From IMG/VR virus record IMGVR_UViG_3300031552_000005, positions 1-56,656 of that record: 56,656 nucleotides of DNA; one strand, written 5' to 3'. The position numbers and the translations under genes were made by a program. The notes under the pieces are model-generated. The model had not been told where the DNA came from. It made no database searches and worked only from the letters and a program-made list of their open reading frames with translations. This stretch comes from a virus. Below, one piece after another: positions 1,801-46,077 of the stretch (positions are counted from its first letter, which is position 1; every line of letters begins with the position of its first letter).

Positions 1801-1914
1801 ATAGTTGCTATGTGGCGGAATAGAGACGTTGTCGAAAAACAATAATAGTAATTAGCTTGTTAAGAGATCAAGAATAAAAAATCTGTAAGAATCGAATCTT
1901 ACCATAGCAACTAT
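1801..1914 (+). ncRNA. tRNA-like structured RNA, copy 1
   Basis: An 11-bp terminal stem closes the element (ATAGTTGCTAT with ATAGCAACTAT; core 1804-1911, 108 nt). Inside it, TGTGGCGGAAT..AGACG resembles the D-arm side of bacterial tRNA-Leu, and GTAAG..CTTAC around AATCGAAT resembles a T-arm. The GG of the D-loop and the normal TTC of the T-loop are missing. A small hairpin (GTTGT/ACAAT, loop CGAAAA, 1828-1843) sits where an anticodon arm would be, followed by an over-long variable region of about 40 nt. No proper anticodon loop is seen. Copy 2 at 45,943-46,077 has the same first 21 and last 23 bases but a different centre. It is not a standard tRNA; function unknown. Confidence 0.6.
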
Positions 1915-1964
1915 ATATTTATATGATGGATTTTTTCTACAAGCGGAAATTAAGGGGTGAAATA

Positions 1965-2570
1965 ATGAAACTAAACGTAAGCTATCTTAAAAAAATAGGG
2001 GCATGTTCTGAGGCTATTGAATATTATAGTGAGAAATACGGCGACAATGAAGTCGATGTATTAACTGCATTCAATGAAGCTGAAATTGACTGGCAAGTAT
2101 GGTTCATGGGTAATGCCGATATTGATATTGTCAAATTATTAATTGACAATGGAGCTGATGTGAATGCTAAGGATGATTTCGGCTGGACAGCATTGATGTG
2201 GGCGAGCCGTTGTGGCAATTATAATATTGTCAAATTATTAATTGACAATGGAGCTGATGTGAATGCTAAGAATTATTTCGGCAGTACAGCATTGATGGAG
2301 GCTAGTAGCTTTGGTCGTATTGATATTGTCAAATTATTAATTAATAATGGAGCTGATGTGAATGCTAGTGCTAATAATGGCTGGACTGCATTGATGTTGG
2401 CTAGTCGTTGTGGCCATTATAATATTGTTAGATTGCTACTCGAAGCGGGTGCTGATGTAAATGCTAAAGATGATGATGGCAGTACGGCATTGATGTTGGC
2501 GAGTCGTAATGGTTATATTGATATTGTTAGATTATTGAAAAGCAAGGAGTTAAATAATGAAGATAGGTGA
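1965..2570 (+). CDS. Ankyrin-repeat protein
   Basis: The preferred start is the ATG at 1965, with AAGGGGTGA upstream. The 201-residue product has a short N-terminal cap and four ankyrin repeats with the consensus GADVNAKDxxGxTALMxA and DIVKLLIDN, ending in a half repeat. Ankyrin arrays bind other proteins; here the partner is unknown. There is no signal peptide. The gene is clearly richer in G and C than its neighbours, and its repeats are almost identical at the DNA level, which points to recent acquisition from a bacterial host and recent repeat expansion. It could act on host proteins during infection (inference). Confidence 0.9.
   Translation: MKLNVSYLKKIGACSEAIEYYSEKYGDNEVDVLTAFNEAEIDWQVWFMGNADIDIVKLLIDNGADVNAKDDFGWTALMWASRCGNYNIVKLLIDNGADVNAKNYFGSTALMEASSFGRIDIVKLLINNGADVNASANNGWTALMLASRCGHYNIVRLLLEAGADVNAKDDDGSTALMLASRNGYIDIVRLLKSKELNNEDR
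2125..2369 (+). repeat. Tandem 99-bp ankyrin DNA repeats
   Basis: A 47-base block beginning ATATTGTCAAATTATTAATT occurs at 2125-2171 and again without change at 2224-2270, and a third copy with a few changes lies at 2323-2369, each 99 bp apart (33 codons). Repeat number can change without breaking the frame. Confidence 0.9.
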
Positions 2571-2883
2571 TAAAGTAATAATTAAACAATTATCAAGAAA
2601 AAAATTTTCAACAATGCAGAATAAATTATGGTTTTGTTCTTATGAAGATTATTTAGAACGTAGAAAAAAGTTTTTTAATAAAATTGGAAAAATAATTTAT
2701 ATTTCTAGATTAGAACCAAATTTTAAGGTTAAAGTAAAAAGAGTAAAAGAATGCAAACATTTTTATAAAAAAGAATTGGTATTATTAAAAAATAAAATTA
2801 CAGAAAAACAATTAAAAAAATATGGGAAATATGAGATTTATGTTTTTCAAAATAAGGAATGTTTTTTTATAAAAAAGATTTGA
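2557..2883 (+). CDS. Unknown basic protein (108 aa)
   Basis: Starts inside the end of the ankyrin gene (14-bp overlap) after AAGGAG. The product is basic, beginning MKIGDKVIIKQL, which resembles a small beta-barrel (KOW or SH3-like) start found in phage proteins that control translation or bind RNA, but I cannot assign a family. AT content returns to the phage average here, unlike the ankyrin gene. Confidence 0.6.
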   Translation: MKIGDKVIIKQLSRKKFSTMQNKLWFCSYEDYLERRKKFFNKIGKIIYISRLEPNFKVKVKRVKECKHFYKKELVLLKNKITEKQLKKYGKYEIYVFQNKECFFIKKI

Positions 2884-2950
2884 TTATACAAATAGAAATA
2901 ATTTCAAAAAATAATAAAATTAGTATAGCTTATTTTTATGGTGAGTAATA

Positions 2951-4030
2951 ATGATAAATTCAAAATTTGAAGTATCTGATAGACAAAAAACAGTAGAACA
3001 GCAAAGGGATGATATTCAAAAAGTTTATAATTTTTGTAAACATTATTTTAAACAATATCATAAATTTCCTAAATTAATAAAAATATCTAATGCTACTGAA
3101 TTAAATAACGAGCAAATAAAACTTATTTTGAAATTTCTTATAAGTAAAAATTATTTAAAAATATATGGTAATAATTATTATTTTCCTGAACAAAAAATAA
3201 GTAGAAAAAAGAAAATAATAAAAAAAGAAGAATCTAAAAAAGAAATAAAAAAAATACATATAACTTTTGATAGATTTATTGAAATAATTCAAACTATATT
3301 TACAGGTATTATTTCTACTATTGGTAATTTGTTTACTGTAATTACAGGAGTTTTTTTATCTACTTATTTTACTTATATTTGGTTTATTGATTATTTTGAT
3401 GGTTTAATTCCGATTATTTTAAGTATGTTTATTGTATTTGGTAGTTTAATTTCTTATCAAAATTATAAAAAACAAAATAAAAAACGGTATTTTGTATTTT
3501 GGATAATAATAATTTCCTTTAGTATTGTTACTGGAATTTCAGGACAACTAAATAAAGGGATAGAAAAAAAAATAATATTAGAGGAAACTAATGTTAATGC
3601 TAATAATAAAACTTTATTATTTAATGATTATAGTAATAGAATAAAAGATATTAAGATAGAAATAGAAAGTGTAAGAAAAGAAAGAGAAAAATTACAAGAA
3701 TTTTTATCTAATACTTCTTTTGATAATACTGATGATAAAAAAGAATATAAAGATATTAATTATAGAATTTATTTAAAAAATAATGATTTGAATAAATTAA
3801 GAGATGAATTAACTAAATTAGAAAAAGAAAAAGAAAATTTATTAAAAGAAGATGTTAAATTAAATATAACTGAAAAAATAGATTTTTTTACATGGTTAAA
3901 TTCTTTTACTAATATAAATGCAGATTGGTTTAAATTACTTTTATATACTTTATTGGCTATATTTGCAGATATTTTACCGCCAGTAAATTTAAGTAATTTA
4001 TTAGTTTATTATAAAAGGAGTAAAAAATGA
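2951..4030 (+). CDS. Membrane protein with N-terminal winged-helix-like part and coiled coil
   Basis: The 359-residue product has three parts. Residues 20-80 look like a winged helix (KFPKLIKISNATELNNEQIK then LISKNYLKIYGNNYYF). Residues about 105-200 hold three to four membrane segments (FTGIISTIGNLFTVITGVFL, IPIILSMFIVFGSLI, FVFWIIIISFSIVTGI). Residues 215-315 are a long charged coiled coil, and a last hydrophobic segment (LLLYTLLAIFADI) ends the protein. It overlaps the next gene by four bases. No known family is recognised; a membrane-tethered regulator or an exclusion protein are both possible (inference). Confidence 0.65.
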   Translation: MINSKFEVSDRQKTVEQQRDDIQKVYNFCKHYFKQYHKFPKLIKISNATELNNEQIKLILKFLISKNYLKIYGNNYYFPEQKISRKKKIIKKEESKKEIKKIHITFDRFIEIIQTIFTGIISTIGNLFTVITGVFLSTYFTYIWFIDYFDGLIPIILSMFIVFGSLISYQNYKKQNKKRYFVFWIIIISFSIVTGISGQLNKGIEKKIILEETNVNANNKTLLFNDYSNRIKDIKIEIESVRKEREKLQEFLSNTSFDNTDDKKEYKDINYRIYLKNNDLNKLRDELTKLEKEKENLLKEDVKLNITEKIDFFTWLNSFTNINADWFKLLLYTLLAIFADILPPVNLSNLLVYYKRSKK

Positions 4031-4224
4031 AAATATTATTTTTTATAATTTTATACTTTATTTTTTCTATATTATTTATTATAATATTATGTAAAACTAT
4101 TTTTAATAAAAAAAATGAAATACATTCTTGTAAAGATTGTGATTTTTTAAAAAATAATTATTGTTTATATCTAAATAAAAAAATTAAAAATATAAATAAA
4201 TTAAATTGTATAAAGGAGGAATAA
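4027..4224 (+). CDS. Small membrane protein with cysteine cluster
   Basis: 65 residues: an N-terminal membrane segment (FFIILYFIFSILFIIILC) and a soluble tail with CKDCDF, NNYC and LNC, a possible metal site. It starts in an ATGA overlap with the previous membrane protein and is followed directly by the lipoprotein gene, so the three form one operon with probably related roles at the host membrane. No family recognised. Confidence 0.6.
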   Translation: MKILFFIILYFIFSILFIIILCKTIFNKKNEIHSCKDCDFLKNNYCLYLNKKIKNINKLNCIKEE

Positions 4225-4914
4225 ATGAAAAAATTATTACTTTTTATTTTATTTTTTATTTTATGTTGTTGTCAAAATCCTATTATTAACAAAACAGAAA
4301 AAGAAATTTTAATTAAAGAAATTACGAAAAAAGACAATATGACTATTGTTGATAAAAAATTTTATCCAATAGAAGAACCTTTAGTAATTAAATTTAAAAA
4401 ATTTCTACCTAAAGGAAGCTTATACGCAGGTCAAGGTAATGGTTATAAAGATGTACCTTTAGAGCAAGTACAAACTGATAAGCAAAATGGTAAAAGATAT
4501 TGGGAAAATTCTTATACTCTAACTTCTGATATAGAAACTTTTGATTTAAGTTCTATTTTAGGGGGCAATCATAAAGCTTATAAAATTAGAGTATATTGTG
4601 TAATTACTGATTATGGATTAGTAGAAAATTATTCTAATGCTATTGGGGGGATTGATACTCCTGCCGTAATACATTTTTCAACACCAGGAAGTAATCTAAC
4701 ACCAAGTACATTAACACAAAGATATAATGACACTTATTATAATTGGGTAGATATAATAACAAATGAAGATCAAGAAATTAATGCCTGTATAGATATTACA
4801 GAGCCTTATGATGCTATTACCGATAATGCTAATCCTGGAGTTCATGTATATAAATGGATAGAAATTGAATTAAGAGTATATGCAAAAGGTGAAGAAGTTA
4901 CTTTTATAGAATAA
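4225..4914 (+). CDS. Phage-borne lipoprotein
   Basis: MKKLLLFILFFILCCCQN is a lipoprotein signal peptide with lipobox-like FILC; cleavage would leave a lipid-modified cysteine. The mature part is about 210 residues, mainly beta-type, with no cysteine motif or enzyme site seen. Ribosome site AAAGGAGG precedes the start. Lipoproteins encoded next to phage tail genes often block superinfection or alter the cell surface, but nothing in the sequence proves this here. The gene ends at the bidirectional terminator facing the tail and lysis genes. Confidence 0.8.
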   Translation: MKKLLLFILFFILCCCQNPIINKTEKEILIKEITKKDNMTIVDKKFYPIEEPLVIKFKKFLPKGSLYAGQGNGYKDVPLEQVQTDKQNGKRYWENSYTLTSDIETFDLSSILGGNHKAYKIRVYCVITDYGLVENYSNAIGGIDTPAVIHFSTPGSNLTPSTLTQRYNDTYYNWVDIITNEDQEINACIDITEPYDAITDNANPGVHVYKWIEIELRVYAKGEEVTFIE

Positions 4915-4920
4915 AATAAT

Positions 4921-4950
4921 AATAGAGTAGATATATATATCTACTCTATT
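4921..4950. terminator. Bidirectional terminator (perfect palindrome)
   Basis: AATAGAGTAGATATA is followed immediately by its exact complement, giving a perfect 30-base palindrome between the two convergent transcription units. An A/T run follows on each side, so it can stop transcription from both directions. Confidence 0.8.
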
Positions 4951-5185
4951 TAAAAAAAGCTAAAAATACAGCTAATAAACCGTTGCCAATTGCAATTATT
5001 ATAGTTATTATATGTGCTAATGATGTTCTTTTTTTATCTTTCTTATCTTTCTTATCTTGTTTACAATTATTAATAAATATTTCATGAGGTACTATATATT
5101 TTTCCATTGCTTTATCAAATTTTTCATCTAATTTATCTATTTTTGTTTCCACTCTTTGTAATATTTCTGATTCTATTTTTGTCAT
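4946..5185 (-). CDS. XhlA-like holin accessory protein
   Basis: 79 residues: a charged N-terminal helix (ILQRVETKIDKLDEKFDKAM), a Lys/Asp stretch, and one C-terminal membrane segment (IITIIIAIGNGLLAVFLAFF). This order matches the XhlA/haemolysin family, membrane-associated proteins that work with holins in host lysis. The stop codon lies inside the shared terminator palindrome, so this is the last gene of the leftward transcript. Family assignment is from layout and length. Confidence 0.65.
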   Translation of the reverse strand: MTKIESEILQRVETKIDKLDEKFDKAMEKYIVPHEIFINNCKQDKKDKKDKKRTSLAHIITIIIAIGNGLLAVFLAFFK

Positions 5186-5188
5186 AAT

Positions 5189-5563
5189 TTATACCTCTAT
5201 TAGATCAAGTTCTTCTTGTGTCATTGTTTTTTCAATATCATCAAATATTTTTTTATAGTTATCTTTTGCTTCTTCTTTACTAAATACAAAATCCGGATCA
5301 TTTTTAGATTTTAATAATAATTCATTTTTAAATTTTTCTTTATTTTCTTTAAATATTATTTCTGTTGTTTTTTTAATTATTATTTTATTTTCAATATCAT
5401 AAACTGCATTATGTTTAATATTATCAATAATTTCTGGATAATTTTTTTTTGTTAAAATAAATGTATTATCATTTAATTCTAATTCTTCTCCTGAAATAGA
5501 TAATATTTTTCTTAAATTAATATTATCTAAATATGGCTTATTATCAATTTTTATATATGTCAT
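5189..5563 (-). CDS. Unknown protein next to tail fibre
   Basis: 124 residues, soluble and acidic. MTYIKIDNKPYLDNI with a charged helical C-terminus (KNDPDFVFSKEEAKDNYKKI) lies directly after the fibre-type gene. Its size and place fit a tail fibre assembly or capping protein, but no family motif is visible and I leave the role open. Confidence 0.5.
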   Translation of the reverse strand: MTYIKIDNKPYLDNINLRKILSISGEELELNDNTFILTKKNYPEIIDNIKHNAVYDIENKIIIKKTTEIIFKENKEKFKNELLLKSKNDPDFVFSKEEAKDNYKKIFDDIEKTMTQEELDLIEV

Positions 5564-5575
5564 TTTTTCTCTCCT

Positions 5576-7006
5576 TTATGCTTTAAATTGTAATTGCTGA
5601 TTAATATACCAATCCTGTGTGGTAATATCTATTGCAATTGCATTATCTTGCGTATATGTAATACCCCCGCCATTTGTTTGTCTTTTTATTGAATTTAAAT
5701 CCACCTGAAATATGGTTTCTCCTCTTGACGCAGCTGTTGCTGACCCACAAAGCGGAATAAAAGAATTATTGCCTGTGCCGTCTGTAGAAATAGAATATTT
5801 ATATTCTATATCAATAATATTTATTCCAAAATTATGATAAAAATTATAATCAACATTTTTTGATGCTCCTGTTCCTTCATCTACATCTGCTGTATCAGAA
5901 TTTGCAGCCGTTAATGTTGCCCCATCTGTGAAAACACCTGTTCCACCCGTAATATTATAAAAATATAATGTTCCTGCAGCACCTGTGCCACCTGAATCAT
6001 AAATACAAGTTACAGTAGTTGTACCATCAGAAAAGGTCATGCCCGACCAATCTACTGCTGCTGATTTATTATCATATGTTACACCATTTCCCATTTCTAC
6101 ACCTGTATAATCATTTCTGTTTTGATATCCTATTGTTAATATTGTCATCCCCGACATTTTCCAATCAATCCCATTATTGAAATATCTGAATCCGTCACCT
6201 TTTGAATAAATTGGATTTCCAGATATTTGCCGTCCTTTATATCTTACTTTTTCACTACCTTCGGCATCAACCCAAACAAGACCTTCATTTGTGGCTTCAT
6301 GTTCTATATCATACCACTTCCCAATATTATCGGCTATTGTTGGAAGTGTAATTGTAATAACTCCATATTGTGCCGCTGTATTACATTTAACTAATATTTT
6401 TGTACCTGATATTATTGTATCTGCAATAACATAATCAGCAGTAACTTCAATAATTCCTTGTGCTGGTTTTGCTAATCCAGTCCAATCTGCACTAGAAGCA
6501 GTTCCAGTAGCAATATAAATATTATTATTTGAACTATCTATAAAAGTTTGTCCTAAAAATGTTGGGGTGATTGTAGGTGCTGCTGTTCCCGTTAATGTAT
6601 AAGTAGAAAAAGTTCGTTTCACCCATGAAGCACCATTCCAAATAAATGTAATTTCTGATCCAGGATATAATATTTCTAAATTTGGTAATCCTATTACATT
6701 TGCACTTGATCCAGATTCATTTCTGATTATAATTTCTTTTGCATCTCCAAAACTTCCAGGAAATGTCATTGTACAATTTCCAGCAATTGTACAAATTAAT
6801 AATTGTTTTCTAATAGTTGTACTAATTACATGAGTTGCCCCTGTTATTGCTACTACAAGCGGAGAATAATCAGATAATGTTTGTACATATTCTGCAATTT
6901 TTGCTTGTGAAACTGATTTATCTGTTGTAGATTGTCTACAATGTATAATATCTGCCGGTGCAACTACTGTGGTTATTGGTAGATCGGTAATTGTGCGGTT
7001 AGCCAT
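5576..7006 (-). CDS. Tail fibre / receptor-binding type protein
   Basis: 476 residues. The start MANRTITDLPITT is typical of phage tail fibre attachment ends. The body is Gly, Thr and Ser rich with beta-type sequence (TLTGTAAPTITPTFLGQTFI) and no membrane segment. It lies just after the DUF2612 baseplate gene, where the distal fibre is normally encoded. It probably contacts the host surface. The C-terminal region has low similarity to anything I know, as expected for host-range proteins. Confidence 0.7.
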   Translation of the reverse strand: MANRTITDLPITTVVAPADIIHCRQSTTDKSVSQAKIAEYVQTLSDYSPLVVAITGATHVISTTIRKQLLICTIAGNCTMTFPGSFGDAKEIIIRNESGSSANVIGLPNLEILYPGSEITFIWNGASWVKRTFSTYTLTGTAAPTITPTFLGQTFIDSSNNNIYIATGTASSADWTGLAKPAQGIIEVTADYVIADTIISGTKILVKCNTAAQYGVITITLPTIADNIGKWYDIEHEATNEGLVWVDAEGSEKVRYKGRQISGNPIYSKGDGFRYFNNGIDWKMSGMTILTIGYQNRNDYTGVEMGNGVTYDNKSAAVDWSGMTFSDGTTTVTCIYDSGGTGAAGTLYFYNITGGTGVFTDGATLTAANSDTADVDEGTGASKNVDYNFYHNFGINIIDIEYKYSISTDGTGNNSFIPLCGSATAASRGETIFQVDLNSIKRQTNGGGITYTQDNAIAIDITTQDWYINQQLQFKA

Positions 7007-7024
7007 TTTGTCCTCCTAAATTTT

Positions 7025-7639
7025 TTAAGTTACTATCATAAATTCGCCATCATCTAATTCTACAAATCCGCCATCATCAAGAATTAAATTATAAGCGATT
7101 AAAAGCCCTACTCCTGCTGGCAATACTTGATATAATAAATCTTCTGCAATATCATCAGGTAGCCATAATATCATTGTACCACCATCATCAAGTTCCATTA
7201 AAAATCCATCATCAAGTTCTAAATCATATTCAAGATATAATCCGATATCTCCATCTTGCCATAATTGTATTTTTGCAGGGTATACTCCAACTAATTGTAC
7301 ATCCGTAGCATTATAAAGACTTATTGCAGTTTTTATAATAGCTTCTGGAGTTCCAGAACTGAAATTAATTTCTGCTTTTATTTTTAATAATGTTCTGTAC
7401 GCTTCATCCATCCTGCCCTGTCTTTCTAATCCTAATATTTTACCAATTATATCAAGAGTTATTCCTTCTCCGTTTTCAATATCAAATTCTGTTATAAGTT
7501 CAAATATGGCCTGTTCTATTTTATTACATTCATTTGCAAAAGCTTCTTGCCATAGTACAAAATTTGGCTTTTCTTTATATTGCTGTAAGAGTAAAGTATT
7601 AAAATCTTTATAATCAGTATTTTGTACTATTTCAATCAT
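7025..7639 (-). CDS. DUF2612-like baseplate protein
   Basis: 204 residues. Residues 45-105 (ENGEGITLDIIGKILGLERQ, then YRTLLKIKAEINFSSGTPE) match the DUF2612 / Mu gp48-like baseplate family, which sits between gpJ and the fibre in myoviruses. The C-terminal third carries two versions of an LDDG-rich beta repeat (LELDDGFLMELDDGGTMI and LILDDGGFVELDDG), an unusual extension likely to link to the fibre. Gene order (gpJ, this protein, fibre) supports the call. Confidence 0.8.
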   Translation of the reverse strand: MIEIVQNTDYKDFNTLLLQQYKEKPNFVLWQEAFANECNKIEQAIFELITEFDIENGEGITLDIIGKILGLERQGRMDEAYRTLLKIKAEINFSSGTPEAIIKTAISLYNATDVQLVGVYPAKIQLWQDGDIGLYLEYDLELDDGFLMELDDGGTMILWLPDDIAEDLLYQVLPAGVGLLIAYNLILDDGGFVELDDGEFMIVT

Positions 7640-7651
7640 TTATATTTCTCC

Positions 7652-9112: not shown

Positions 9113-9124
9113 AATATCTCCTTA

Positions 9125-11411: not shown

Positions 11412-11754
11412 CCCACCATTCTAAAAGTTCAGCTTGTGTAATATAAAATAAGTCATAGTATACACCTAAATTATCATAATTTAATTCATTTATATTTATA
11501 TCATCACTAATTTTTAATATTATTAAATCTCCTAATACTTCTGGAAATAATGCTTTATGTCTCCATAATAACGGATAATTTTTTATTAATTTTATTCCAT
11601 TTAATTCATAATTTGCAGTTTTTAATCTTAACATCCAACTTTCAACACGTGTATTATATACTAATCTTATTTCTGTGTTTACATTTTCAAGGTCAATATT
11701 CATAGTAAAATCTGCGGATAAATCTTTGAAATTAGAAGGTATTTGTATTGCCAT
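11392..11754 (-). CDS. Tail hub-associated protein (DUF6983-like)
   Basis: 120 residues. NTEIRLVYNTRVESWMLRL followed by GIKLIKNYPLLWRHK is the pattern of small tail proteins found between Dit-like and hub genes in myoviruses. A conserved bend (PEVLGDLIILK) follows. It is probably a baseplate component; enzyme motifs are absent. The family name is given with moderate confidence. Confidence 0.6.
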   Translation of the reverse strand: MAIQIPSNFKDLSADFTMNIDLENVNTEIRLVYNTRVESWMLRLKTANYELNGIKLIKNYPLLWRHKALFPEVLGDLIILKISDDININELNYDNLGVYYDLFYITQAELLEWWVANGIR

Positions 11755-16517: not shown

Positions 16518-17066
16518 TTAATTATTATAAACTCCTTCAAATTCCACAGTTTCAATAAATCCTGGATCATAAGTACCTTCATCTGGAAATAGTATTATTA
16601 AATCCATTGTACTTCTTAATTCCCATATATTTTCTATTATTTGTGGAATTGGAGTTATGGTTTCCGTTCTTAATATACTAACTTTTGAACTTCTAAAATA
16701 ATCTTTTATATCTTGCATCCTTAAACTATTTTTTAAAGTTCTTAAATTATCCCCATTATCTGTAAAACCTACTTCTTCCAAACTAATAGTAGCTTGGTAA
16801 TGTTTTGCAAAATCTATATAACCATGAATTACTTCATCTTCTGTACCTTCATCATCTATTACTTTTCTTGCTTTACTTTCATTACCGCTTGCATATTCTT
16901 GTACTGTCATTGGTTGATGAATAACTATATATTCTTTTTTAGGTTTTGGGGCTGATTGTTCTCCTCTTATAATTGGAATAGTGGGAGTATCATCTATTCC
17001 CAAAGAAGGCTCTAATACATTACGAATCCATGTTAATAATATTGTATAAATTTGTGTAGTTGTCAT
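16518..17066 (-). CDS. Neck terminator protein (gp12-like)
   Basis: 182 residues. IYTILLTWIRNVLEPSLGID followed by PKPKKEYIVIHQPM and a C-terminal SILRTETITPIPQIIENIWE matches the phage neck terminator domain (LIC_12616 type). It caps the tail before joining the head. Its place directly upstream of the sheath gene on the same strand is standard. It overlaps the preceding gene by four bases. Confidence 0.8.
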   Translation of the reverse strand: MTTTQIYTILLTWIRNVLEPSLGIDDTPTIPIIRGEQSAPKPKKEYIVIHQPMTVQEYASGNESKARKVIDDEGTEDEVIHGYIDFAKHYQATISLEEVGFTDNGDNLRTLKNSLRMQDIKDYFRSSKVSILRTETITPIPQIIENIWELRSTMDLIILFPDEGTYDPGFIETVEFEGVYNN

Positions 17067-17419
17067 GCTTCCCTTCTTTCAGCTATATATTCATAGTGAG
17101 GTATCAAATTACCAAATTTTAATCTTTGTATAATTTCATATTCCTCTGTTAAATAAACTATTCTATCACCGTTTTGTAATTCAATTCCATCCGTTCCTGG
17201 AATTGCTACTATTAATTCAGTATCACAAAATATTTTAATTTTTCCTAAATTATCTCTCCCTATATTTAAACTTTCTAATTCTTTTGCGGTTAATGCTTGA
17301 CAATCTGCTGTTACTATAAAATCATCAGCTAAACTTCCAGTAACATAATTTCCAGAATTATCATAATAACCTTCTGCTACTCGTCTTTTAATAGTATGTG
17401 CACTTCCAAACAATACCAT
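17063..17419 (-). CDS. Head-tail joining protein
   Basis: 118 residues, beta-rich: TIKRRVAEGYYDNSGNYV, then VTADCQALTAKELESLNIGR and GIELQNGDRIVYLTEEYEII. This is the pattern of head closure proteins (stopper) encoded between DUF4054 and gp10-like genes. It overlaps both neighbours by one to four bases. Family by pattern and place; no exact domain name claimed. Confidence 0.65.
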   Translation of the reverse strand: MVLFGSAHTIKRRVAEGYYDNSGNYVTGSLADDFIVTADCQALTAKELESLNIGRDNLGKIKIFCDTELIVAIPGTDGIELQNGDRIVYLTEEYEIIQRLKFGNLIPHYEYIAERREA

Positions 17420-27334: not shown

Positions 27335-27551
27335 TTATTCCTCCTTTATATTTTTTTATTGCTCCTGATCCAAATACAGCACCCCATACAATACTAAACA
27401 CTCCAAATATAATCAAATCTAATTTATACAAAAATTCAATGTTTATTTCAGGTTTAAAAATAATTATAAATCTATCAATAGAAAGAGAAATTAATAAATA
27501 AAATAATATAATTAATCCTAACCATTTTCCCAGAGTATTTTTTTTCTTCAT
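27318..27551 (-). CDS. Holin-like membrane protein
   Basis: 77 residues with two membrane segments (WLGLIILFYLLISLSI and LDLIIFGVFSIVWGAVFGSG) and charged ends, the layout of class II holins. It overlaps the spanin-like gene by 17 bases. Alternative: a simple membrane accessory protein. Confidence 0.5.
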   Translation of the reverse strand: MKKKNTLGKWLGLIILFYLLISLSIDRFIIIFKPEINIEFLYKLDLIIFGVFSIVWGAVFGSGAIKKYKGGINDTKD

Positions 27552-27561
27552 TTTTTATTCC

Positions 27562-27843
27562 TTATACCAATTTAGAATTCTTATCATTATCAGTAGCAAT
27601 AAAATCCCCTATCATTTCTTTAAATTCAAACATTAAAAAATTTGCTGCATCAACTAAATATTCTGCATTACCTGTTTTTTTATATAAACTAATTCTATAT
27701 TCTGCATTTTTTAATTCATCACGACTATTAGTTAATACGTTGCTTTTAGTCTTTTTTAAATCCCCATATTTACTATTAGAAGTCATTATCCTGTTTTTCA
27801 TTTTTTGAATAAAATCCCAACTCCAAGCATTCTCCCATGCCAT
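27562..27843 (-). CDS. MazG-like phage protein (93 aa)
   Basis: LKNAEYRISLYKKTGNAEYL followed by VDAANFLMFEF is a motif I know from small phage proteins related to MazG-type nucleotide pyrophosphohydrolases (YxxTGNxEYLxDxANFxMxEF). The N-terminal catalytic ExxE pattern is not obvious. It likely acts in nucleotide metabolism; a second MazG-like gene is at 29,434-29,676. Confidence 0.6.
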   Translation of the reverse strand: MAWENAWSWDFIQKMKNRIMTSNSKYGDLKKTKSNVLTNSRDELKNAEYRISLYKKTGNAEYLVDAANFLMFEFKEMIGDFIATDNDKNSKLV

Positions 27844-37610: not shown

Positions 37611-37790
37611 TCACTCTCCTTTTAATTTATTCAAAATTTCATCTGTCAAAATATTCTCATTAAGAATTTTAGGAAATACTTCAATAAATATATCTAACGC
37701 TTTTTGATATTTTTTTTGACTTTTAATCTGTTCTTCTAATAATTTAATATTTTCTTTTTTTATTATTTCTTTATATTCCTGATCTGTCAT
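37611..37790 (-). CDS. Small helical protein (59 aa) with terminase-like tail
   Basis: MTDQEYKEIIKKENIKLLEE, then a C-terminus NENILTDEILNKLKGE that closely resembles the end of the small terminase encoded just upstream (NENTLTDDVMNNLMNKLKGE). This suggests a partial duplication of the terminase small subunit end. It may modulate packaging (inference). Confidence 0.5.
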   Translation of the reverse strand: MTDQEYKEIIKKENIKLLEEQIKSQKKYQKALDIFIEVFPKILNENILTDEILNKLKGE

Positions 37791-37792
37791 TA

Positions 37793-38401
37793 TTATTCCC
37801 CTTTTAATTTATTCATTAAATTATTCATAACGTCATCTGTTAAAGTATTCTCATTATTCTTTTCTTCTCTTATCATATTTATATATTTTATTAATGTATT
37901 CATTGCAAATTCCTTACCCATTAACTCTACTGTTAATACTCTTATATTTCCATCCCTACCGTAATGTTTAGGTTCTATCTTTTTTATACATTGTCTCAAA
38001 TATTTTGGAATATCTGATAATCTCTTTTTTAAATTTCCCTGCTCATCTACATAATCTAAAATATCAGATTCAAGTATTGCTTTTAACTTTTTAAATATAT
38101 TATATTCTAATTTTTCTTTTTCTTTTCCTAACTCATTTTCTATCACAATTTTAATTGCTTCTCTAATTTTAATACTCGATAATAATAAACTACACCTTAC
38201 ATCTATGCCCTTTTCCGAATATCCCGCCATTTTAGCTGCTTTTGTATGATTTTCATTAGTCATTATATAATAAAATGCAAATTTTCTTTGTTTTAAAGTT
38301 AATTCTAAATCTTTTTTATCTAAATAGTAAGTCCTTTCTTTAAATTTAGTATTATTAAATTCTACTGTATTTTCTAACTCTTTTTCTATATTATTTTTCA
38401 T
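37793..38401 (-). CDS. terS: Terminase small subunit
   Basis: 202 residues. LTLKQRKFAFYYIMTNENHT, then KAAKMAGYSEKGIDVRCSLL is the helix-turn-helix signature of the terminase small subunit family. The middle (EYNIFKKLKAILESDILDYV) is the usual oligomerisation part. It binds the packaging site and guides the large subunit. It overlaps the gene upstream by 11 bases. Confidence 0.88.
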   Translation of the reverse strand: MKNNIEKELENTVEFNNTKFKERTYYLDKKDLELTLKQRKFAFYYIMTNENHTKAAKMAGYSEKGIDVRCSLLLSSIKIREAIKIVIENELGKEKEKLEYNIFKKLKAILESDILDYVDEQGNLKKRLSDIPKYLRQCIKKIEPKHYGRDGNIRVLTVELMGKEFAMNTLIKYINMIREEKNNENTLTDDVMNNLMNKLKGE

Positions 38402-38669: not shown

Positions 38670-38687
38670 ATTAACCTCATAATTTTA

Positions 38688-38716: not shown

Positions 38717-38725
38717 GTGTTTTCT

Positions 38726-38758: not shown

Positions 38759-38767
38759 AATTTCCTC

Positions 38768-39211: not shown

Positions 39212-39221
39212 TTAACCTCCT

Positions 39222-39290
39222 TTAAATTTTTATTTTATTTATAACAAATAAAATTATTATAGTAATACATATAATAATTGTTATTTCCAT
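39222..39290 (-). CDS. Tiny membrane peptide (22 aa)
   Basis: MEITIIICITIIILFVINKI is one membrane segment with a basic end, after a GGAGGAA ribosome site. It overlaps the end of the Lar-like gene by ten bases and carries the AAAGGAGG site of the next gene in its tail. Plausible but short. Confidence 0.4.
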   Translation of the reverse strand: MEITIIICITIIILFVINKIKI

Positions 39291-40263: not shown

Positions 40264-40496
40264 TTAATACTCTCAAAAATAAAATTTTTATTTCTTTTTT
40301 TACACCATTTTATAACTTCTTGTTTATGATAACTACAAACCAAAAATTCCTGCGTTTTATTATTCAAATCAAAGATTTTTATTAACCCTATTATTTTTCT
40401 ATTACATGGAACATAATGAGTAATATATGGATTATCTTTATATTTTCTTCGAGTAACTAATCTTTGACATAAGTCAAGACTCATGTTTAACTCCAC
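40254..40496 (-). CDS. Unknown Cys/His-containing protein (80 aa)
   Basis: DLCQRLVTRRKYKDNPYITH then YVPCNRKIIGLIKI and VCSYHKQEVIKWCKK: five cysteines and two histidines suggest a metal site. It overlaps both neighbours by 10 to 23 bases. No family recognised. Confidence 0.5.
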   Translation of the reverse strand: MELNMSLDLCQRLVTRRKYKDNPYITHYVPCNRKIIGLIKIFDLNNKTQEFLVCSYHKQEVIKWCKKRNKNFIFESIKCK

Positions 40497-40668
40497 AATA
40501 AGGACAAAATTTATATTTTTTTAATAATTTTTTGATTTCTCCCCAATATAACCATTTATTACAATTAGAACATTTATAATAATTTGAATCCATAGAAGAA
40601 CATTGCCTTCTTGTTGTTACCCAGCCATCTGAATCATTATTTCTCTTTTCATCAATAACTAAACTCAT
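40474..40668 (-). CDS. Zinc-ribbon protein (64 aa)
   Basis: NYYKCSNCNKWLYWGEIKKL followed by KFCPYCGVKHES, two CxxC pairs 20 residues apart. DEKRNNDSDGWVTTRRQCSS precedes it. Probably a small nucleic-acid or protein-binding zinc ribbon; seen in the recombination cluster. Confidence 0.6.
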   Translation of the reverse strand: MSLVIDEKRNNDSDGWVTTRRQCSSMDSNYYKCSNCNKWLYWGEIKKLLKKYKFCPYCGVKHES

Positions 40669-40671
40669 ATC

Positions 40672-40917
40672 TTACTCCATTTCATAACTTTCTAATTCTG
40701 ATAAATTATCATTTATTTCTGTTTCTAGTTTTTCCAATTTTAATTTATCTTTTTCTATTACTTCATCAATTTCATCTATATTATTTATTTGAAATTCTGT
40801 TTTTAATTTTTCTAATAAACTTTCCTGCTTACCTTCAATTTGATTTTTTCTCTTTTCTGCTTCATTAATCTCATTTTCATAATTTTCAAGTTTACCTTGT
40901 AATTCATTTAGATTCAT
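40672..40917 (-). CDS. Free-standing coiled-coil protein (81 aa)
   Basis: LQGKLENYENEINEAEKRKN, then QIEGKQESLLEKLKTEF and KLKLEKLETEINDNLSELES: heptad pattern over nearly the whole protein. It lies between SbcD and the C-terminal Rad50-like gene, so it may be a third, separated piece of the Rad50 arm. That reading is inference; any coiled-coil partner is possible. Confidence 0.6.
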   Translation of the reverse strand: MNLNELQGKLENYENEINEAEKRKNQIEGKQESLLEKLKTEFQINNIDEIDEVIEKDKLKLEKLETEINDNLSELESYEME

Positions 40918-41098
40918 TATTTAACTCCTTATTTAATTTTTTAATACGATTCCTCAATTCTTTATCTGATTCCTCATAAAAACCTTCAAAACGATCCGAT
41001 AAAGCCCTATTATATTTTTTATTTTGTTTTTTATATAATTTTCTATACACACACCTCATTTCTGTATTTCTTTTTATTATTTCATCTAATACACTCAT
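40904..41098 (-). CDS. Unknown basic helical protein (64 aa)
   Basis: VLDEIIKRNTEMRCVYRKLY, then a basic helix and DKELRNRIKKLNKELNNE. It overlaps SbcD by one base and the coiled-coil gene by 14. No family recognised. Confidence 0.5.
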   Translation of the reverse strand: MSVLDEIIKRNTEMRCVYRKLYKKQNKKYNRALSDRFEGFYEESDKELRNRIKKLNKELNNESK

Positions 41099-41970
41099 TA
41101 TAAAACCTCCTCAATTTCATTTATAATATCTTCACTAATATTATTTTCTTTACAATAATTTTTTAAATTCGATTCAAAACTAAAAGATACTTTTTTACCT
41201 TTACCTACCATATCTATGAAACTATCAATTCTACTTTCCCTTTTAATTTGCTCTGTTAAATTTTCCTCTTTAAAAACGTTTTTATTTTGATCTGGTAATA
41301 ATATTTTTTCATATTTTTTAGTTTCTGTATCAAATAGAATAATGGAAGGTTGATAGTCTTTTTCATTTAAGTTTTGTCTTGCACAACATCCGGTATTAAA
41401 TACAAACCTTCCATCTTTTTCATATATAAAACTTTTGTGATTATCTCCTACTACAAAAACATCATAACCATATTTTTCTAATAATAATTTTGCAGTTATA
41501 CCGTCATTTATATAATCAGGTAAATTATCTTTTTCACAATATTTATGCAATACACAAATTGATAAATATTCTTCATAATCTTTATCAATAATTTCTGCAC
41601 CAAAATCAAAAAATCTAATAAAAGGATCAGATAATTCTTGTATATGTTTCCAATTATCAAATTTATCTAATAATCCAATATTACATTTATCAAAATTTTC
41701 TATTTGCTTATATAATAAATCGTGGTTTCCAGCTATAAAATAAATATCTATATCTTTAAATATTTCATATACTTGATTTATTAAACTCTGCATATTTTCT
41801 TCTTTTGATTTATGGAAGATATCACCTGCATTTATGATAGTTGCATTATTTTCTATTGCTACTTTTGCAATAAATTTTAAAGTATCTATTTGTAATTGTT
41901 GAAAGTCGTCTAATCTTGAAATAGGGTTTGTACTTCTTAAATGAAAATCTGAACAAAACAATAATTTCAT
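41098..41970 (-). CDS. SbcD/Mre11-like nuclease (gp47)
   Basis: 290 residues from the ATG at 41,970 with GGAGG upstream. Phosphoesterase motifs in order: FCSDFHLR, NAGDIFHK, FIAGNHDLLYK, CVLHKYC and VGDNHKSF. It is the two-metal nuclease partner of SbcC/Rad50, active on DNA ends and hairpins, and gp47-like in phage recombination. It sits between the two halves of the Rad50-like protein. It overlaps the HNH gene by four bases. Confidence 0.9.
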   Translation of the reverse strand: MKLLFCSDFHLRSTNPISRLDDFQQLQIDTLKFIAKVAIENNATIINAGDIFHKSKEENMQSLINQVYEIFKDIDIYFIAGNHDLLYKQIENFDKCNIGLLDKFDNWKHIQELSDPFIRFFDFGAEIIDKDYEEYLSICVLHKYCEKDNLPDYINDGITAKLLLEKYGYDVFVVGDNHKSFIYEKDGRFVFNTGCCARQNLNEKDYQPSIILFDTETKKYEKILLPDQNKNVFKEENLTEQIKRESRIDSFIDMVGKGKKVSFSFESNLKNYCKENNISEDIINEIEEVL

Positions 41971-42512
41971 ACATACCTCCAAATAAAACCACCCGCACTT
42001 TTTCGCTTATAATTTAAACATAACCAAATATTTCCTTGACTAATATTCGTTAATTTACTAGCTAAAGATTGACTATTATATTCTTGTATTAAATTTTTGT
42101 TCAAATCAAATTGTAATATTTTAGTTTTTCTTTTATTATTATAATGAGCACAATTCTTAATTGCTTGTTTTATAGAATTACTACTCAATCCCATATAAAT
42201 AGCATGTTTAATATTTTCTGATCTTGTACAATATTCTAAATTCTCTAATCTATTATCAGATTTTATTCCATTAATATGATTAACATCTAAATTAGATGAT
42301 CCTTTAAATGCTAATAATACTAAACGATGAACTAACCAAGATTTACTTTTATTGTCTTTATTTAAATTTAATACTAAATAAGAATTTTTATTTTTTAATA
42401 AAAAAGATTGTTTCATTATTTTTTCTTTATTAAATTTCAAACTCTTTACTCTTCCTAAATTACTAACCTGATATAATCCCCCATATCTAGGAATATCTTT
42501 AAATATTTCCAT
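41967..42512 (-). mobile_element. HNH homing endonuclease (NUMOD4 type)
   Basis: 181 residues. NUMOD4: IFKDIPRYGGLYQVSNLGRV. HNH: LVHRLVLLAFKGSSNLDVNH then NHINGIKSDNRLENLEYCTR. NUMOD1-like end: LNKNLIQEYNSQSLASKLTN with a final GGFIWRYV. A free-standing homing endonuclease; it is inserted between the N-terminal Rad50-like gene and SbcD with no intron motif seen around it. It overlaps SbcD by four bases, so it has become part of the operon. Confidence 0.9.
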
Positions 42513-42516
42513 AATA

Positions 42517-42654
42517 TTACCCCTTTAATAAGGATTGTTTTAAATATCTTTCTACTAACTCATTTAAAGTAATTTTCTCTTTAATAGCTTTAATCTTTAA
42601 TTCTGCTATTAAATCACGATCTTTAATTGCAATAGTAGTATGTTTGTTTTCCAT
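42517..42654 (-). CDS. Ribbon-helix-helix type regulator (45 aa)
   Basis: MENKHTTIAIKDRDLIAELK then IKAIKEKITLNELVERYLKQ: a short strand (TTIAI) followed by two helices, the ribbon-helix-helix layout of Arc/MetJ-type DNA-binding proteins. It is the first gene after promoter 42,677-42,705. It may repress that promoter (inference). Confidence 0.65.
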   Translation of the reverse strand: MENKHTTIAIKDRDLIAELKIKAIKEKITLNELVERYLKQSLLKG

Positions 42655-42676
42655 TTCTTATATCCTTATTATCATT

Positions 42677-42705
42677 ATAATATTATATTTTTATAAATAT
42701 GTAAA
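42677..42705 (-). promoter_or_regulatory. Phage promoter, class A variant
   Basis: TTTACA (42,705-42,700), 17 bases, TATTAT (42,682-42,677), with upstream ATTTTAC as in the other class A promoters. It lies directly after the N-terminal Rad50-like gene and drives the RHH/HNH/SbcD genes. Confidence 0.55.
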
Positions 42706-42711
42706 GTAAAA

Positions 42712-43743
42712 TCATAAAATTCTTTTGCATACTGGACATAAACTGCCTTTTGGTAATAAATTCTTTTTAAGTTGATTTATATTAAATATCTTATTATTCA
42801 ATTCTTTTATCATATTTTTATTATCCTGATAACCTTTCAACAAATCTATTTTGTCTGCTAAAATATTATAATTATTTATGTTACCTTTTAACTTTTTAAT
42901 CAATTCTAATTTTACTTTATTATCTTTATAACTATTTAATTCATGTATATTAATATTATAATTATTTTTTATATCATTTAACTGTATTATTTTATTATTT
43001 ATTCTTTCAAAATCTAACTTTGATACTTTTAATTTTTTTAATAAACCTTTTTGCTTATTTATATTTTTATACTTTCTTAATTTTTCTTTATATTCCTTTA
43101 ATTCAATTTTCCATAATCTTAATATATTGTTTCTCTCTCCAATTATATTTTTTTCATCTTCTAATTTTTCGCATTTAATTATTATATTTTCTATTTCTTC
43201 TAAATTAGTATATTTATTTAGTTTATTTTTTATATTTAAAATATCTGCTTCTAAATAATCAATATCATTTTTCTTTTTATTTACTTTACTTTTTATTTTT
43301 TTAATACTCTCATCAATAATAGAAAGATTTATAATACGATTAAGAATCCTCGCCACTTCTCCTGGACTGTCTTGTAATAGAAAAAATTTATCAAACTGCA
43401 TTTGTAAATTAAGTTCATTAAAATTTAGATTATTTATTTCTTCTGGAATAGATTGTCCTATTGATTTTAATTCTACATTATTTATAATATATTTATTTTC
43501 TTTATCTGATTTTACTTTTTCAATTATATTATCATCTATTTCTAATTTTACTTTACATTCTTTTTCATTATAAGTTATTATATCAGTACCTTTCGGCTCA
43601 TTATTGATAACGAAATTTATTGCCTTAATAATTGAACTTTTACCATTATTGGAACTTCCTGATATTATATTTATTCCATTAGTAAATTCTAATATAGAAT
43701 TTTTATGGCTTTGAAAATTTTTTAACTCAATTTTTCGGATCAT
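42712..43743 (-). CDS. SbcC/Rad50-like ATPase, N-terminal half ending at zinc hook
   Basis: 343 residues from the ATG at 43,743; an upstream TTG is less likely. IRKIELKNFQSHKNSILEFT and Walker A ISGSSNNGKSS begin an SMC-type head; a Q-loop region (MQFDKFFLLQDSPGEVARIL) follows. From residue 150 a coiled coil runs to the very end, where the last residues are SLCPVCKRIL: the CxxC zinc hook of Rad50. The protein stops right after the hook. The other half with signature and Walker B is at 39,640-40,263. Confidence 0.9.
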   Translation of the reverse strand: MIRKIELKNFQSHKNSILEFTNGINIISGSSNNGKSSIIKAINFVINNEPKGTDIITYNEKECKVKLEIDDNIIEKVKSDKENKYIINNVELKSIGQSIPEEINNLNFNELNLQMQFDKFFLLQDSPGEVARILNRIINLSIIDESIKKIKSKVNKKKNDIDYLEADILNIKNKLNKYTNLEEIENIIIKCEKLEDEKNIIGERNNILRLWKIELKEYKEKLRKYKNINKQKGLLKKLKVSKLDFERINNKIIQLNDIKNNYNINIHELNSYKDNKVKLELIKKLKGNINNYNILADKIDLLKGYQDNKNMIKELNNKIFNINQLKKNLLPKGSLCPVCKRIL

Positions 43744-43907
43744 TTGCAAACTCTTTTATATATAAAAAATAAAAATTGAAATTCAATCATAACTACATCA
43801 TTATAGTAATAAAATAATGATTTATTATTTATACTAATAAAATCAATTAAAAAATATTTTCCCTTTATAGTAAAATCAATAGTAAATATTTTTAAAACAA
43901 ACCTCAT
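43740..43907 (-). CDS. Unknown small hydrophobic protein (55 aa)
   Basis: MRFVLKIFTIDFTIKGKYFL, then YYNDVVMIEFQFLFFIYKR. Good AAGGA ribosome site and an ATGA overlap with the Rad50-like gene. Beta-type hydrophobic strands; no family recognised. Confidence 0.5.
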   Translation of the reverse strand: MRFVLKIFTIDFTIKGKYFLIDFISINNKSLFYYYNDVVMIEFQFLFFIYKRVCK

Positions 43908-43909
43908 TT

Positions 43910-44137
43910 TTATCCTTCTCCTTCTAATAAACTAATAAATTCTTCTTTACATAAATTTTCATTAACTAATTCATAAATAAAATTTTCAGCCTCTCTTTCA
44001 TTATCAAACTCAATTTTAATATCTTTACCTAATTTATTATACTTTATATTATTTATTTCTATTTTTTTAAATTCTCTATTTGGGTAATTAAAACATTCAT
44101 AATTTTCTTTTTTAACATTATCAATTGTTATTTTCAT
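43910..44137 (-). CDS. Unknown acidic protein (75 aa)
   Basis: MKITIDNVKKENYECFNYPN then REAENFIYELVNENLCKEEF. Small alpha/beta protein in the recombination operon. No family recognised. Confidence 0.5.
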   Translation of the reverse strand: MKITIDNVKKENYECFNYPNREFKKIEINNIKYNKLGKDIKIEFDNEREAENFIYELVNENLCKEEFISLLEGEG

Positions 44138-44162
44138 TTTTTAACCTCTCACTATATAATAA

Positions 44163-44546
44163 TTATTTTTTATATAACTTTTCTAATAAATTAAAAAAAA
44201 CTTCACTATCTAATACTACAACTGGCTTTTTAAAATCTTTACATTTCCAGAATAATAGAAAGTTACGATTTTCTTTTGTATTACTTTTTGCTTGCTTAAT
44301 CCAATTTTTTATACTTGGTTTTTCTACTGATTTACATTCGCAATCAAAAGGAAATATTTTATAAATTTCGCCTGTTAATATTATATCAGTTCCACTTAAT
44401 CCACAAGTCCTTGATCTTACTTGACAATTATCATCTTGATTATTAAATTCTATATTAAATAAATCACAAATTCTTTTTGCAATCATTTTTTGCAAATACA
44501 TGCCTTTATTTTTTGCAGAACGGATACTTATTTTTTTAGACATCAA
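44163..44546 (-). CDS. PD-(D/E)XK nuclease (resolvase-like)
   Basis: 127 residues. An N-terminal helix (SAKNKGMYLQKMIAKRICDL) is followed by the motif: GLSGTDIILTGE (Asp) and FPFDCECKSVEKPSI (ExK). The core order helix, D, ExK is that of phage resolvases and recombination nucleases. It overlaps the RecA-like gene by four bases, consistent with a role in branched recombination DNA. Exact substrate unknown. Confidence 0.78.
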   Translation of the reverse strand: MMSKKISIRSAKNKGMYLQKMIAKRICDLFNIEFNNQDDNCQVRSRTCGLSGTDIILTGEIYKIFPFDCECKSVEKPSIKNWIKQAKSNTKENRNFLLFWKCKDFKKPVVVLDSEVFFNLLEKLYKK

Positions 44547-45616
44547 TACTTCCTTTTCCTATAAATTTTAACGGACTCTTCAATCGCCTCCCATTTTTCT
44601 ATAACCATTTCTCTTAACGTATCTTCTAAATTTTTATCTTCAATATAAGTAATTAATTCTTTTTTACTTTTAAAAACATTATTATCAAATTCTACATTAA
44701 AATTAGTTTTATCTTTTCCACCATCAGTTAATAAATTAAATAAAAAATCTAAATTACTATCAATATCTGATATTCCATAATCAAAATAAATAGTATTATA
44801 ATGGTTTCTAAAAGGTCTTTCATTTCTAGTTCTAGTAAATTCTGTTTTATTCCTTACTCCTATTGTTCTGGTTTCCCCTTTTTTTGTAATTCTAATTTTT
44901 TCTATTTCTTTTGCCCAACTTTCAATATGACTAAAAAATCTTAATGCTTTACCGCCTGCACGTTCTTTTTTACTACCAAAAGTAATTCCAATTTTTTCAG
45001 TTTGTTGGGATATTATAATTAATAAACAATTAGATTTTTCAATTAAAATTTTTATTTCTGGAAAAAATTCCTGTTTTAAATATTTTTGCTTTCCCATCAT
45101 ATAACTTCCAGAATCATAACTTTTCCCTTTTGCTTCTGCTTTTTCCCTTTCTTTTATTCTATCTTCTACTTCTTTGCTTGTTAAGGCATCTAAACTATCA
45201 ACTACATAAATTCCAATTTCATCTTCTTTTAATGTTTTTAGAAATTTCTTTATATTTATATTTAATTCTTCCACTGTAGAACTTCTTAATGAATTTTCTG
45301 TAATTATATCTATTCCATATAATTTTTTACAATCTACTTCATTCCCACCTTCTGCATTATCGAAATTAAACTTTAATTTATCTTTATATATTCTTTTATT
45401 TATTGCTATTAATTCATCCGCTTCAAAAGTTTTTCCTGCAGACGGCTCTCCAATCATATTCCATACTATTCCGATTTTTACTCCTAATACTCTATTTCCA
45501 CCACCTAAAATAATATCCCTAATAGTATTACCTGTTAATAATCTGATTTCTTTTTTTTCTTTTTTCTTTTTAGGTTCATTTATAGCATCATTTATAACTT
45601 CATCAACTTTGCTCAT
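44543..45616 (-). CDS. RecA-like recombinase
   Basis: 357 residues. Walker A GEPSAGKTFEADEL, Walker B EIGIYVVDSLDALTSKE, then IIISQQTEKIGITFGSKKER with AGGKALRFFSHIESWAKEIE, the typical RecA/UvsX core with loop L2 region. The C-terminal part is helical. It promotes strand exchange with SSB at 46,084 and the SbcCD-like proteins. It is less like bacterial RecA than like phage versions because loop regions are short. Confidence 0.88.
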   Translation of the reverse strand: MSKVDEVINDAINEPKKKKEKKEIRLLTGNTIRDIILGGGNRVLGVKIGIVWNMIGEPSAGKTFEADELIAINKRIYKDKLKFNFDNAEGGNEVDCKKLYGIDIITENSLRSSTVEELNINIKKFLKTLKEDEIGIYVVDSLDALTSKEVEDRIKEREKAEAKGKSYDSGSYMMGKQKYLKQEFFPEIKILIEKSNCLLIIISQQTEKIGITFGSKKERAGGKALRFFSHIESWAKEIEKIRITKKGETRTIGVRNKTEFTRTRNERPFRNHYNTIYFDYGISDIDSNLDFLFNLLTDGGKDKTNFNVEFDNNVFKSKKELITYIEDKNLEDTLREMVIEKWEAIEESVKIYRKRKY

Positions 45617-45922
45617 TTATTTCTCCTTTTCTTTTAATATTTTATATAAAGGAATTAACATCAACTTAAATATATTTTCATAACTTATTTTTAATTTCCA
45701 ATTTTTTTGCTTCTTGTCTTCTTCTATCAACAAATTATATTTTCTTGCATATCTTATAAACTTATCATAAAAAACAAAATCCACTTCAAAAACATCTCTT
45801 ATAAATTGCATAGCTTTTTTAATAGATATTTGTTCATCTTTATTTTTAATTTGGTATTTATCAATTATATCTTCTTTAAAACCTTGTTGATTATAAATAG
45901 CTAATATATCTTTTATTTTCAT
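45617..45922 (-). CDS. Unknown helical protein (101 aa)
   Basis: IKDILAIYNQQGFKEDIIDK, then AMQFIRDVFEVDFVFYDKFI. Basic and helical, directly before recA-like gene, ribosome site CTTAAGGGG. It may assist recombination or replication; no family recognised. Confidence 0.5.
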   Translation of the reverse strand: MKIKDILAIYNQQGFKEDIIDKYQIKNKDEQISIKKAMQFIRDVFEVDFVFYDKFIRYARKYNLLIEEDKKQKNWKLKISYENIFKLMLIPLYKILKEKEK

Positions 45923-45942
45923 TATTTAACCCCTTAAATAAA

Positions 45943-46077
45943 ATAATAGCTGCTATGGTAAGATTCGATTACCTACGTAAACAGCACCAAATCCATGGTG
46001 GGATTCTCTTTACGGACAGGGTCGAACTGCCATTATCCACTATCGGTATATCAATTCTGCCACATAGCAACTATTAT
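45943..46077 (-). ncRNA. tRNA-like structured RNA, copy 2
   Basis: A 15-bp terminal stem (one G-U) closes the element; the core (46,071-45,949) is 123 nt. The 5' end TGTGGCAGAATTGATATACC looks like a tRNA-Leu D-arm with GG changed to GA, and the 3' end GGTAATCGAATCTTACC is a T-arm-like hairpin. The centre has GGCAGTTCGACCCTGTC, a perfect T-arm with standard loop, then CGTAAA pairing with TTTACG around two mutually exclusive hairpins (AATCC/GGATT or CACCA/TGGTG). The centre is much richer in G and C than the genome. Same first 21 and last 23 bases as copy 1. Confidence 0.65.

Follow-up and report, generated by a model that had tools for sequence, protein, structure and literature searches.

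The species 1 and 2 RNAs of phage T4, RNA C (139 nt) and RNA D (119 nt), are encoded within the transfer RNA (tRNA) cluster of that phage, and the excerpts cited here give their function or role as unknown (PMC3014915, PMC9697503, PMC12685909). GOLLD and ROOL, noncoding RNAs of phages and prophages that often lie near tRNA islands, are likewise described as being of unknown function in the excerpt cited (PMC12286853). Here we report two elements in a 56,656-nt stretch of viral DNA (IMG/VR record IMGVR_UViG_3300031552_000005, the whole of which we call the window), element 1 at 1801–1914 on the plus strand and element 2 at 45943–46077 on the minus strand, together with a family of related elements in other phages whose ends are constant and whose centres are exchanged. 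An original prediction made from the letters of the window had described the two as tRNA-like RNAs with near-identical ends and unrelated centres. This observation is confirmed: the positions are correct, 20 of the first 21 and 22 of the last 23 bases agree (counted from 1801 and 46074), and the centres are unrelated on inspection. Both elements share the end stem ATAGTTGCTATG/CATAGCAACTAT, hereafter the clamp, and the 5'-end pattern, with up to three mismatches allowed, occurs at these two sites only in the 56,656-base record. Both run in the same direction as the neighbouring open reading frames (ORFs). ARAGORN called no tRNA gene with an anticodon and no transfer-messenger RNA (tmRNA; tRNA-like ends and a tag frame) in the window, and Rfam gave no match there at an expectation value (E) of up to 1, the models for tRNA, tmRNA, GOLLD, ROOL, YrlA and the twister ribozyme included. 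The wider interpretation offered in the original prediction is supported in part.

At the level of nucleotide sequence, exchange is seen in two pairs of related phages, whose members have different centres at a single locus between ends that have not changed. Upstream of element 2, homology between the window and the related phage G004 (93.2%) enters the element and ends at 46051; it restarts at 45970 and is 100% over 418 bases. The segment between, at 45971–46050 on the minus strand, comprises 80 nt in the window and 93 unrelated nt at the same locus in G004. Similarly, homology between phages G001 and G012 ends at 37751 and restarts at 37854, with 102 and 196 unrelated nt between. The window copies were also considered as phage attachment sites, a candidate that was rejected: because they are inverted relative to each other, they are not a direct attL/attR pair.

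In total, 33 elements were catalogued in 13 phage records, window included (30 from the main listing, a second element in G004 and one each from L078 and L079), so that the family of phage RNAs foreseen in the original prediction, many with a tRNA-like frame, is present in other phages. The further records were reached by pattern scans of viral contigs using both ends and then the inner T-like segment; the element finder returned 81 raw matches, counted on both strands, vs. 14 in reversed sequence. G005 was set aside as a near-duplicate of G002, and a 5' match without a 3' partner (G008/L038) was dropped. The genomes are mostly unrelated, only G000/G004 and G001/G012 sharing more than 10 kb in a blastn comparison outside which L078 and L079 stand. 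Class A, consisting of 22 rows and the second G004 element, has the tRNA-like frame or its remnants; its cores measure 85–216 nt including the two arms, with roughly 50–180 nt in place of the anticodon region. Classes B, C and a 68-nt class D hold other centres within the same clamp, the class B core being found in four records and the class C core in three. Three records have the class B centre in a plain clamp, and G004 has it within the class A tRNA-like frame; modular exchange is therefore shown directly. Of 31 elements checked, seven share more than 15 bases with a mechanical ORF of at least 60 amino acids. At G004 5494–5508(−), L009, the 5' half of an element stands alone, with no partner on the 3' side, and is perhaps a remnant.

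Substitution patterns identify the clamp stem as RNA structure. Among 19 distinct stems from 31 rows (excluding G012_16698, whose stem is imperfect, and G004_11460, which has the stem of element 1), 10 of the 12 pairs have changed on both sides and 92.5% of 228 cells are paired; the observed value was reached by none of 500 shuffles on four of five measures and by a single one on the fifth; slid controls gave far lower values. Whole stems are replaced as well, by AAAGCAAGG/CCTTGCTTT in L078 and L079 and by AAGGCAGGG/CCCTGCCTT in G002. Where the ends vary, compensating changes thus accompany the variation, and the elements withstand the refutation that the original prediction had tied to uncompensated variation of the shared ends. 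Within the clamp, two of the four D-stem pairs have changed on both sides in 13 chosen class A rows. The frame is 98.7% paired for these 13 of 22 rows, a value limited to them because several of the excluded rows (element 2, G002_33733, G002_34044, G003_50513, G006_27647, G006_32807, G011_13070, G012_3736 and G012_19464) have an aberrant D or T arm. These features bear on an origin as mobile DNA resembling miniature inverted-repeat transposable elements, in which a transposase or recombinase would recognize the inverted repeats and RNA structure would be a by-product. Terminal inverted repeats and clamp-bounded sharing among unrelated phages suit that origin, as does a pair of near-identical copies in G006 that cease to be alike near the clamp. 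However, the same frame occurs on other stems with compensating changes (AAAGCAAGG, AAGGCAGGG), the D/T frame is asymmetric with covariation in its D-stem, and the observed cases are in-place replacements of the centre, all of which make such an origin distinctly improbable.

The tRNA-like topology was scanned for as a stem ending beside a D motif with an abutting 5-bp T-arm, in 12 phage records, L078, L079 and a T4 stretch. The 23 matches comprise 14 catalogued elements, six ordinary tRNAs and three chance-like hits, vs. none in reversed sequences. The tRNA arrangement of a T-arm on the acceptor stem and an adjacent D-motif is accordingly found in 14 elements, both window copies included, although the predicted fold of element 2 favours another pairing. 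Many elements are therefore tRNA-like at their ends, with an over-long stem: the window copies have 12 and 15 contiguous bp compared with the 7-bp acceptor stem of tRNA, and CCA is not encoded. Decaying phage tRNA genes, functionless and kept by their neighbourhood, could leave such a frame, given the tRNA arrays nearby, the 5'-half remnant in G004 and a D-arm sequence resembling that of tRNA-Leu. Against decay stand the compensatory changes, the conservation of the ends among unrelated phages and the placement of promoters at the stem, and we consider it very unlikely.

An independent covariance model (R1) was built from ten elements, with both window copies and the G004 ortholog of element 2 left out. 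Its clamp, D-like and T-like frame is found in both window copies, which rank first and second in the window (element 1, 91.3 bits, E 1.3e-19; element 2, 42.4 bits, E 4e-8 over 45946–46074), followed by a match at E 1.3. In 551,116 further bases, R1 gave 24 matches at E < 0.01, all of them catalogued; 14 lie outside the training set and are not all independent, because one is the G004 copy of element 1, at 11460–11573, and another is a near-copy of a training row. At the same threshold R1 misses seven of the 31 catalogued non-window elements (G010_1203, G012_3736, G011_12849, G001_22997, G012_16698, G009_28078 and G009_40133).

In element 1, the clamp arms at 1801–1812 and 1903–1914 (+) pair over 12 bp and enclose a D-arm-like segment (TGGCGGAATAGAGACGTT, 1813–1830) whose loop lacks GG and whose relatives show D-stem covariation, a variable centre (1831–1884; ordinary core stability, z +1.1), and a T-arm-like segment (GTAAG-AATCGAAT-CTTAC, 1885–1902) recognized by sequence and in the topology scan. 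In the predicted fold, the 12-bp stem leads into a D-like hairpin, the A/T-rich centre is only weakly structured, and the T-like hairpin stacks on the stem; the folding z-score of the whole element is −3.10. Element 2 (−) is closed by a 15-bp clamp (5' arm 46063–46077, 3' arm 45943–45957) given by both the stem finder and the predicted fold, and has a z-score of −4.93. Its D-arm-like segment (46045–46062) and T-arm-like segment (45958–45976; found by sequence and topology scan) are predicted to pair together as a single long stem, and the R1 alignment places non-standard pairs in its D-stem; its ends are thus tRNA-like in sequence and not in predicted fold. The D-like and T-like arms of the original prediction consequently hold as predicted structure for element 1 and as a likeness in sequence for element 2. 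The original prediction noted that both copies lack the standard outer T-loop; element 2 does contain a canonical T-arm, but in its centre (GGCAG TTCGACC CTGTC, 46015–46031), where it is directly followed by a predicted hairpin CGTAAA...TTTACG (45976–46014).

Canonical T-arms are embedded in 2 of 30 centres, vs. 0.055 expected per shuffled set, and recall the tRNA-like module of YrlA. Y RNAs also pair a constant terminal stem with a variable interior. Both points would suit a Y-RNA-like or 6S-like scaffold, whose constant stem binds one host protein while the variable part tunes the cargo, the phage thereby using a host ribonucleoprotein instead of blocking a defence. A TROVE/Ro60 gene was found in none of the 13 phage records, however, whereas one of 14 control genomes was positive, and YrlA has no match in the window at E 1; we regard a scaffold of this type as improbable.

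Sigma-70-like promoters (score at least 10/12) whose −10 box ends no more than 9 nt from the clamp abut 6 of 30 elements, vs. 0.67% of 3000 AT-matched sites. With the −10 box so near the clamp, transcription would start at or near the stem. For the window copies there is a weak candidate at element 1 (TATAAT at 1772–1777 (+), 9/12, 23 bases 5' of the element; 16.7% of controls score likewise) and none of note at element 2. These promoters speak against cis-acting punctuation, in which stems cut by RNase III, P or Z would separate or stabilize neighbouring transcripts and the centres would be filler. Such a role could account for the position of element 2 between co-directional ORFs and for the tandem arrays formed by several elements, some with tRNAs. 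Filler should drift, though, and not be swapped whole between ends, the class B and C centres are kept in several phages, and class A cores reach 216 nt; punctuation therefore has only a slim chance of being correct. Because six of 30 elements abut a strong promoter and some centres are kept across phages, the mRNA-processing role raised in the original prediction fits less well.

The sequences establish a family, covariation in the clamp and D-stem, locus-specific exchange and promoters abutting some elements. Our tentative reading, to which we give somewhat less than an even chance, is that the elements are exchangeable phage RNA genes in a stabilizing clamp, most likely acting as decoys or inhibitors of host factors that act on RNA, a role suggested by tRNA mimicry and allelic exchange. 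The near-invariant clamp and AU-rich flanks would let each RNA arise from its own promoter or by excision from a longer transcript, and the clamp would protect the RNA ends. The tRNA-like frame, a D-like arm and a T-arm stacked on the stem, would draw factors that bind or process tRNA; with its over-long stem and no anticodon arm, the molecule would not itself work as a tRNA. The centre would be the specific part, and recombination within the conserved ends would swap centres among phages, leading to an arms-race-like allelic diversity. Expression, stability, partner and decoy role are all inferred here, and the RNAs may be directed against tRNA-targeting or RNA-sensing defences. In a more far-reaching version, which we think rather unlikely, the phages would hold a standing repertoire of exchangeable RNA effectors, with the clamp and tRNA-like chassis as a handle and with centres, loaded by recombination inside the conserved ends, that would each neutralize one particular RNA-acting defence of the host; such a repertoire would be the RNA equivalent of swappable genes for anti-CRISPR or anti-defence proteins. 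The occurrence of swappable centres in several unrelated phages hints at an unrecognized RNA tool in the contest with hosts.

Several observations weigh against decoys or inhibitors of this kind. The T-stem pairs are nearly invariant in the 13 chosen class A rows, and covariation therefore lends the T-stem no support. Taken together, the centres show no unusual stability (mean z −0.75; five of 30 below −2), that of element 1 seems unstructured (core z +1.1), and the ends of element 2 are not predicted to fold into D and T arms. Anticodon-stem-like hairpins number three in the centres vs. 0.99 expected, an unclear enrichment, and an anticodon decoy is therefore not favoured. An abutting promoter is absent from 24 of 30 elements, some of which lie downstream in arrays, and the six promoters are not all independent, two pairs being near-identical. 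Exact-pattern scans of genome contigs, run as a host search, returned no matches; a universal partner gene was considered and rejected, no protein family occurring in more than seven of the 12 phage records compared, and neither a defence gene nor a partner of the RNAs came to light. Antisense action on the own genome was considered and rejected: for each of the 30 elements, the longest complementary stretch stayed at or below the maximum of ten resampled controls, with three ties. Same-sense matches exceeded controls in three elements, namely G004_54768 (20 bases, because the second G004 element was left unmasked), G009_40133 (13 vs. 11) and G012_17144 (14 vs. 12).

Of the regulatory genes proposed beside the two copies, the RecA/UvsX-like gene next to element 2 (44543–45616) is upheld. 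The "sigma-like" gene beside element 1 (918–1598) has no Pfam match at E 0.01 and matches PHROGs of unknown function only, and the proposed single-stranded DNA-binding protein gene has no Pfam or PHROG match at either 46084–47103 or 45617–45922. On its other side, element 1 adjoins an ankyrin-repeat gene (ORF 1923–2570; Pfam Ank_2, E 1.8e-60), which is absent from the same place in G004 (1970–2538 in the window), homology ending at 1969 and restarting at 2539. Terminase and capsid share less than 60% identity with annotated phages, the best capsid among the matches listed being that of a Faecalibacterium phage (39%). Element 2, the L078 element and the G002 stretch have no match among annotated phages and plasmids; another query against these matched 58 records, and the eight matches listed fall on its tRNA-Ile.

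Genes for tRNAs adjoin elements in G009, G011, G012, L078 and L079. An ARAGORN tRNA at L079 1282–1356(−) has the anticodon TTA and would read the stop codon TAA, and a tRNA-like stretch at L079 796–885(−), uncalled by ARAGORN, gives a weak tmRNA match (18.4 bits, E 0.0013, below gathering). Another tRNA-like stretch, seen by eye at about 27500–27650 in G006, is also uncalled by ARAGORN. The tRNA-Cys gene at L061 12974–13058(−), the same as that at L042 11750–11834(−), has a long variable arm and weakly matches tRNA-Sec (33.3 bits, below gathering). Type-P1 twister matches, all below the Rfam gathering threshold (best 42.7 bits, E 2.9e-6; three in one G007 locus), lie at L071 2099–2151(−), L003 5102–5154 and 3279–3331(+), L011 2772–2826, 3525–3580 and 2065–2120(−), and L009 1052–1106(−). 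A weak isrG small RNA match at L003 4252–4421(+) scores 33.3 bits vs. a gathering threshold of 100.

A parallel to the exchange of centres is found in cultured phages. Outside its clamped elements, G012 (L071) carries a noncoding stretch at 16982–17094 with two T-arm-like hairpins discerned by eye. Unannotated relatives, 73–75% identical, occur in the Pseudomonas putida phages Ebordelon and Holyagarpour and in Klebsiella phage FBKp24, where the relative sits just after phage tRNA genes; the Ebordelon copy also matches phages SA002, SXP01 and D6. In the P. putida phages these relatives adjoin an unannotated long-stem RNA whose outer ends, TTGCATTGG/CCAATGCAA, are constant; it lies at L084 2366–2487 and L086 2353–2487 in phages of the Zuri type. 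Between Ebordelon and Holyagarpour, whose flanks are 92–94% identical, homology ends exactly after the nine outer bases and restarts at their partners, and the inner stem and centre differ. Zuri and Holyagarpour have the long-stem RNA in common; next to it, flanks that are 99.9% (1,779 bp) and 99.4% (1,560 bp) identical enclose a noncoding stretch of 165 nt in one phage and a replacement of 112 nt in the other. At this P. putida phage locus there is no Rfam family at E 1 and no ARAGORN tRNA, and a literature search on phage Zuri returned no title on it. The likeness to the clamped elements is that, at a single locus, constant outer ends surround inner stems and centres that are unrelated; the stem sequence is different and extends to 23 bp. 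R1 has no match to the long-stem RNAs at E 10, and they therefore represent a parallel for which homology is not established.

The excerpts cited above leave phage noncoding RNAs beside tRNA genes without an assigned function, and whole-module exchange between near-identical phages amounts to a natural experiment. Should the difference between Zuri and Holyagarpour affect how the phages grow on certain strains, a direct test of what such RNAs do would become possible. Searches with the model or with the constant ends could reveal unannotated RNA cartridges in other phages. Our literature searches turned up no paper on the clamped-RNA family, which does not imply its absence from print.

Set beside the known systems, the window elements have the layout of tmRNA, which has tRNA-like ends and a long insert replacing the anticodon arm, but tmRNA has a 7-bp stem compared with 12 and 15 bp in the window copies, which moreover lack an encoded CCA. 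Y RNAs and YrlA resemble them in constant terminal stem, variable interior and tRNA-like modules, and differ in that none of the 13 phage records has a Ro60/TROVE gene and YrlA has no match in the window. GOLLD and ROOL are several hundred nt long. T4 RNA C and RNA D are similar in being small noncoding RNAs encoded among the tRNA genes of a phage, and the end of RNA C, as judged by eye, has a canonical T-arm and after it a weak closing stem; the two share no clamp with the elements, and R1 has no match in the T4 stretch (L083) at E 10. We know of no exchange of centres between constant ends in T4 RNA C or D, GOLLD or ROOL. Overall, the stable noncoding RNAs of phage tRNA clusters come closest in kind, and the elements described here differ from them, so far as we know, in having constant ends with exchanged centres.

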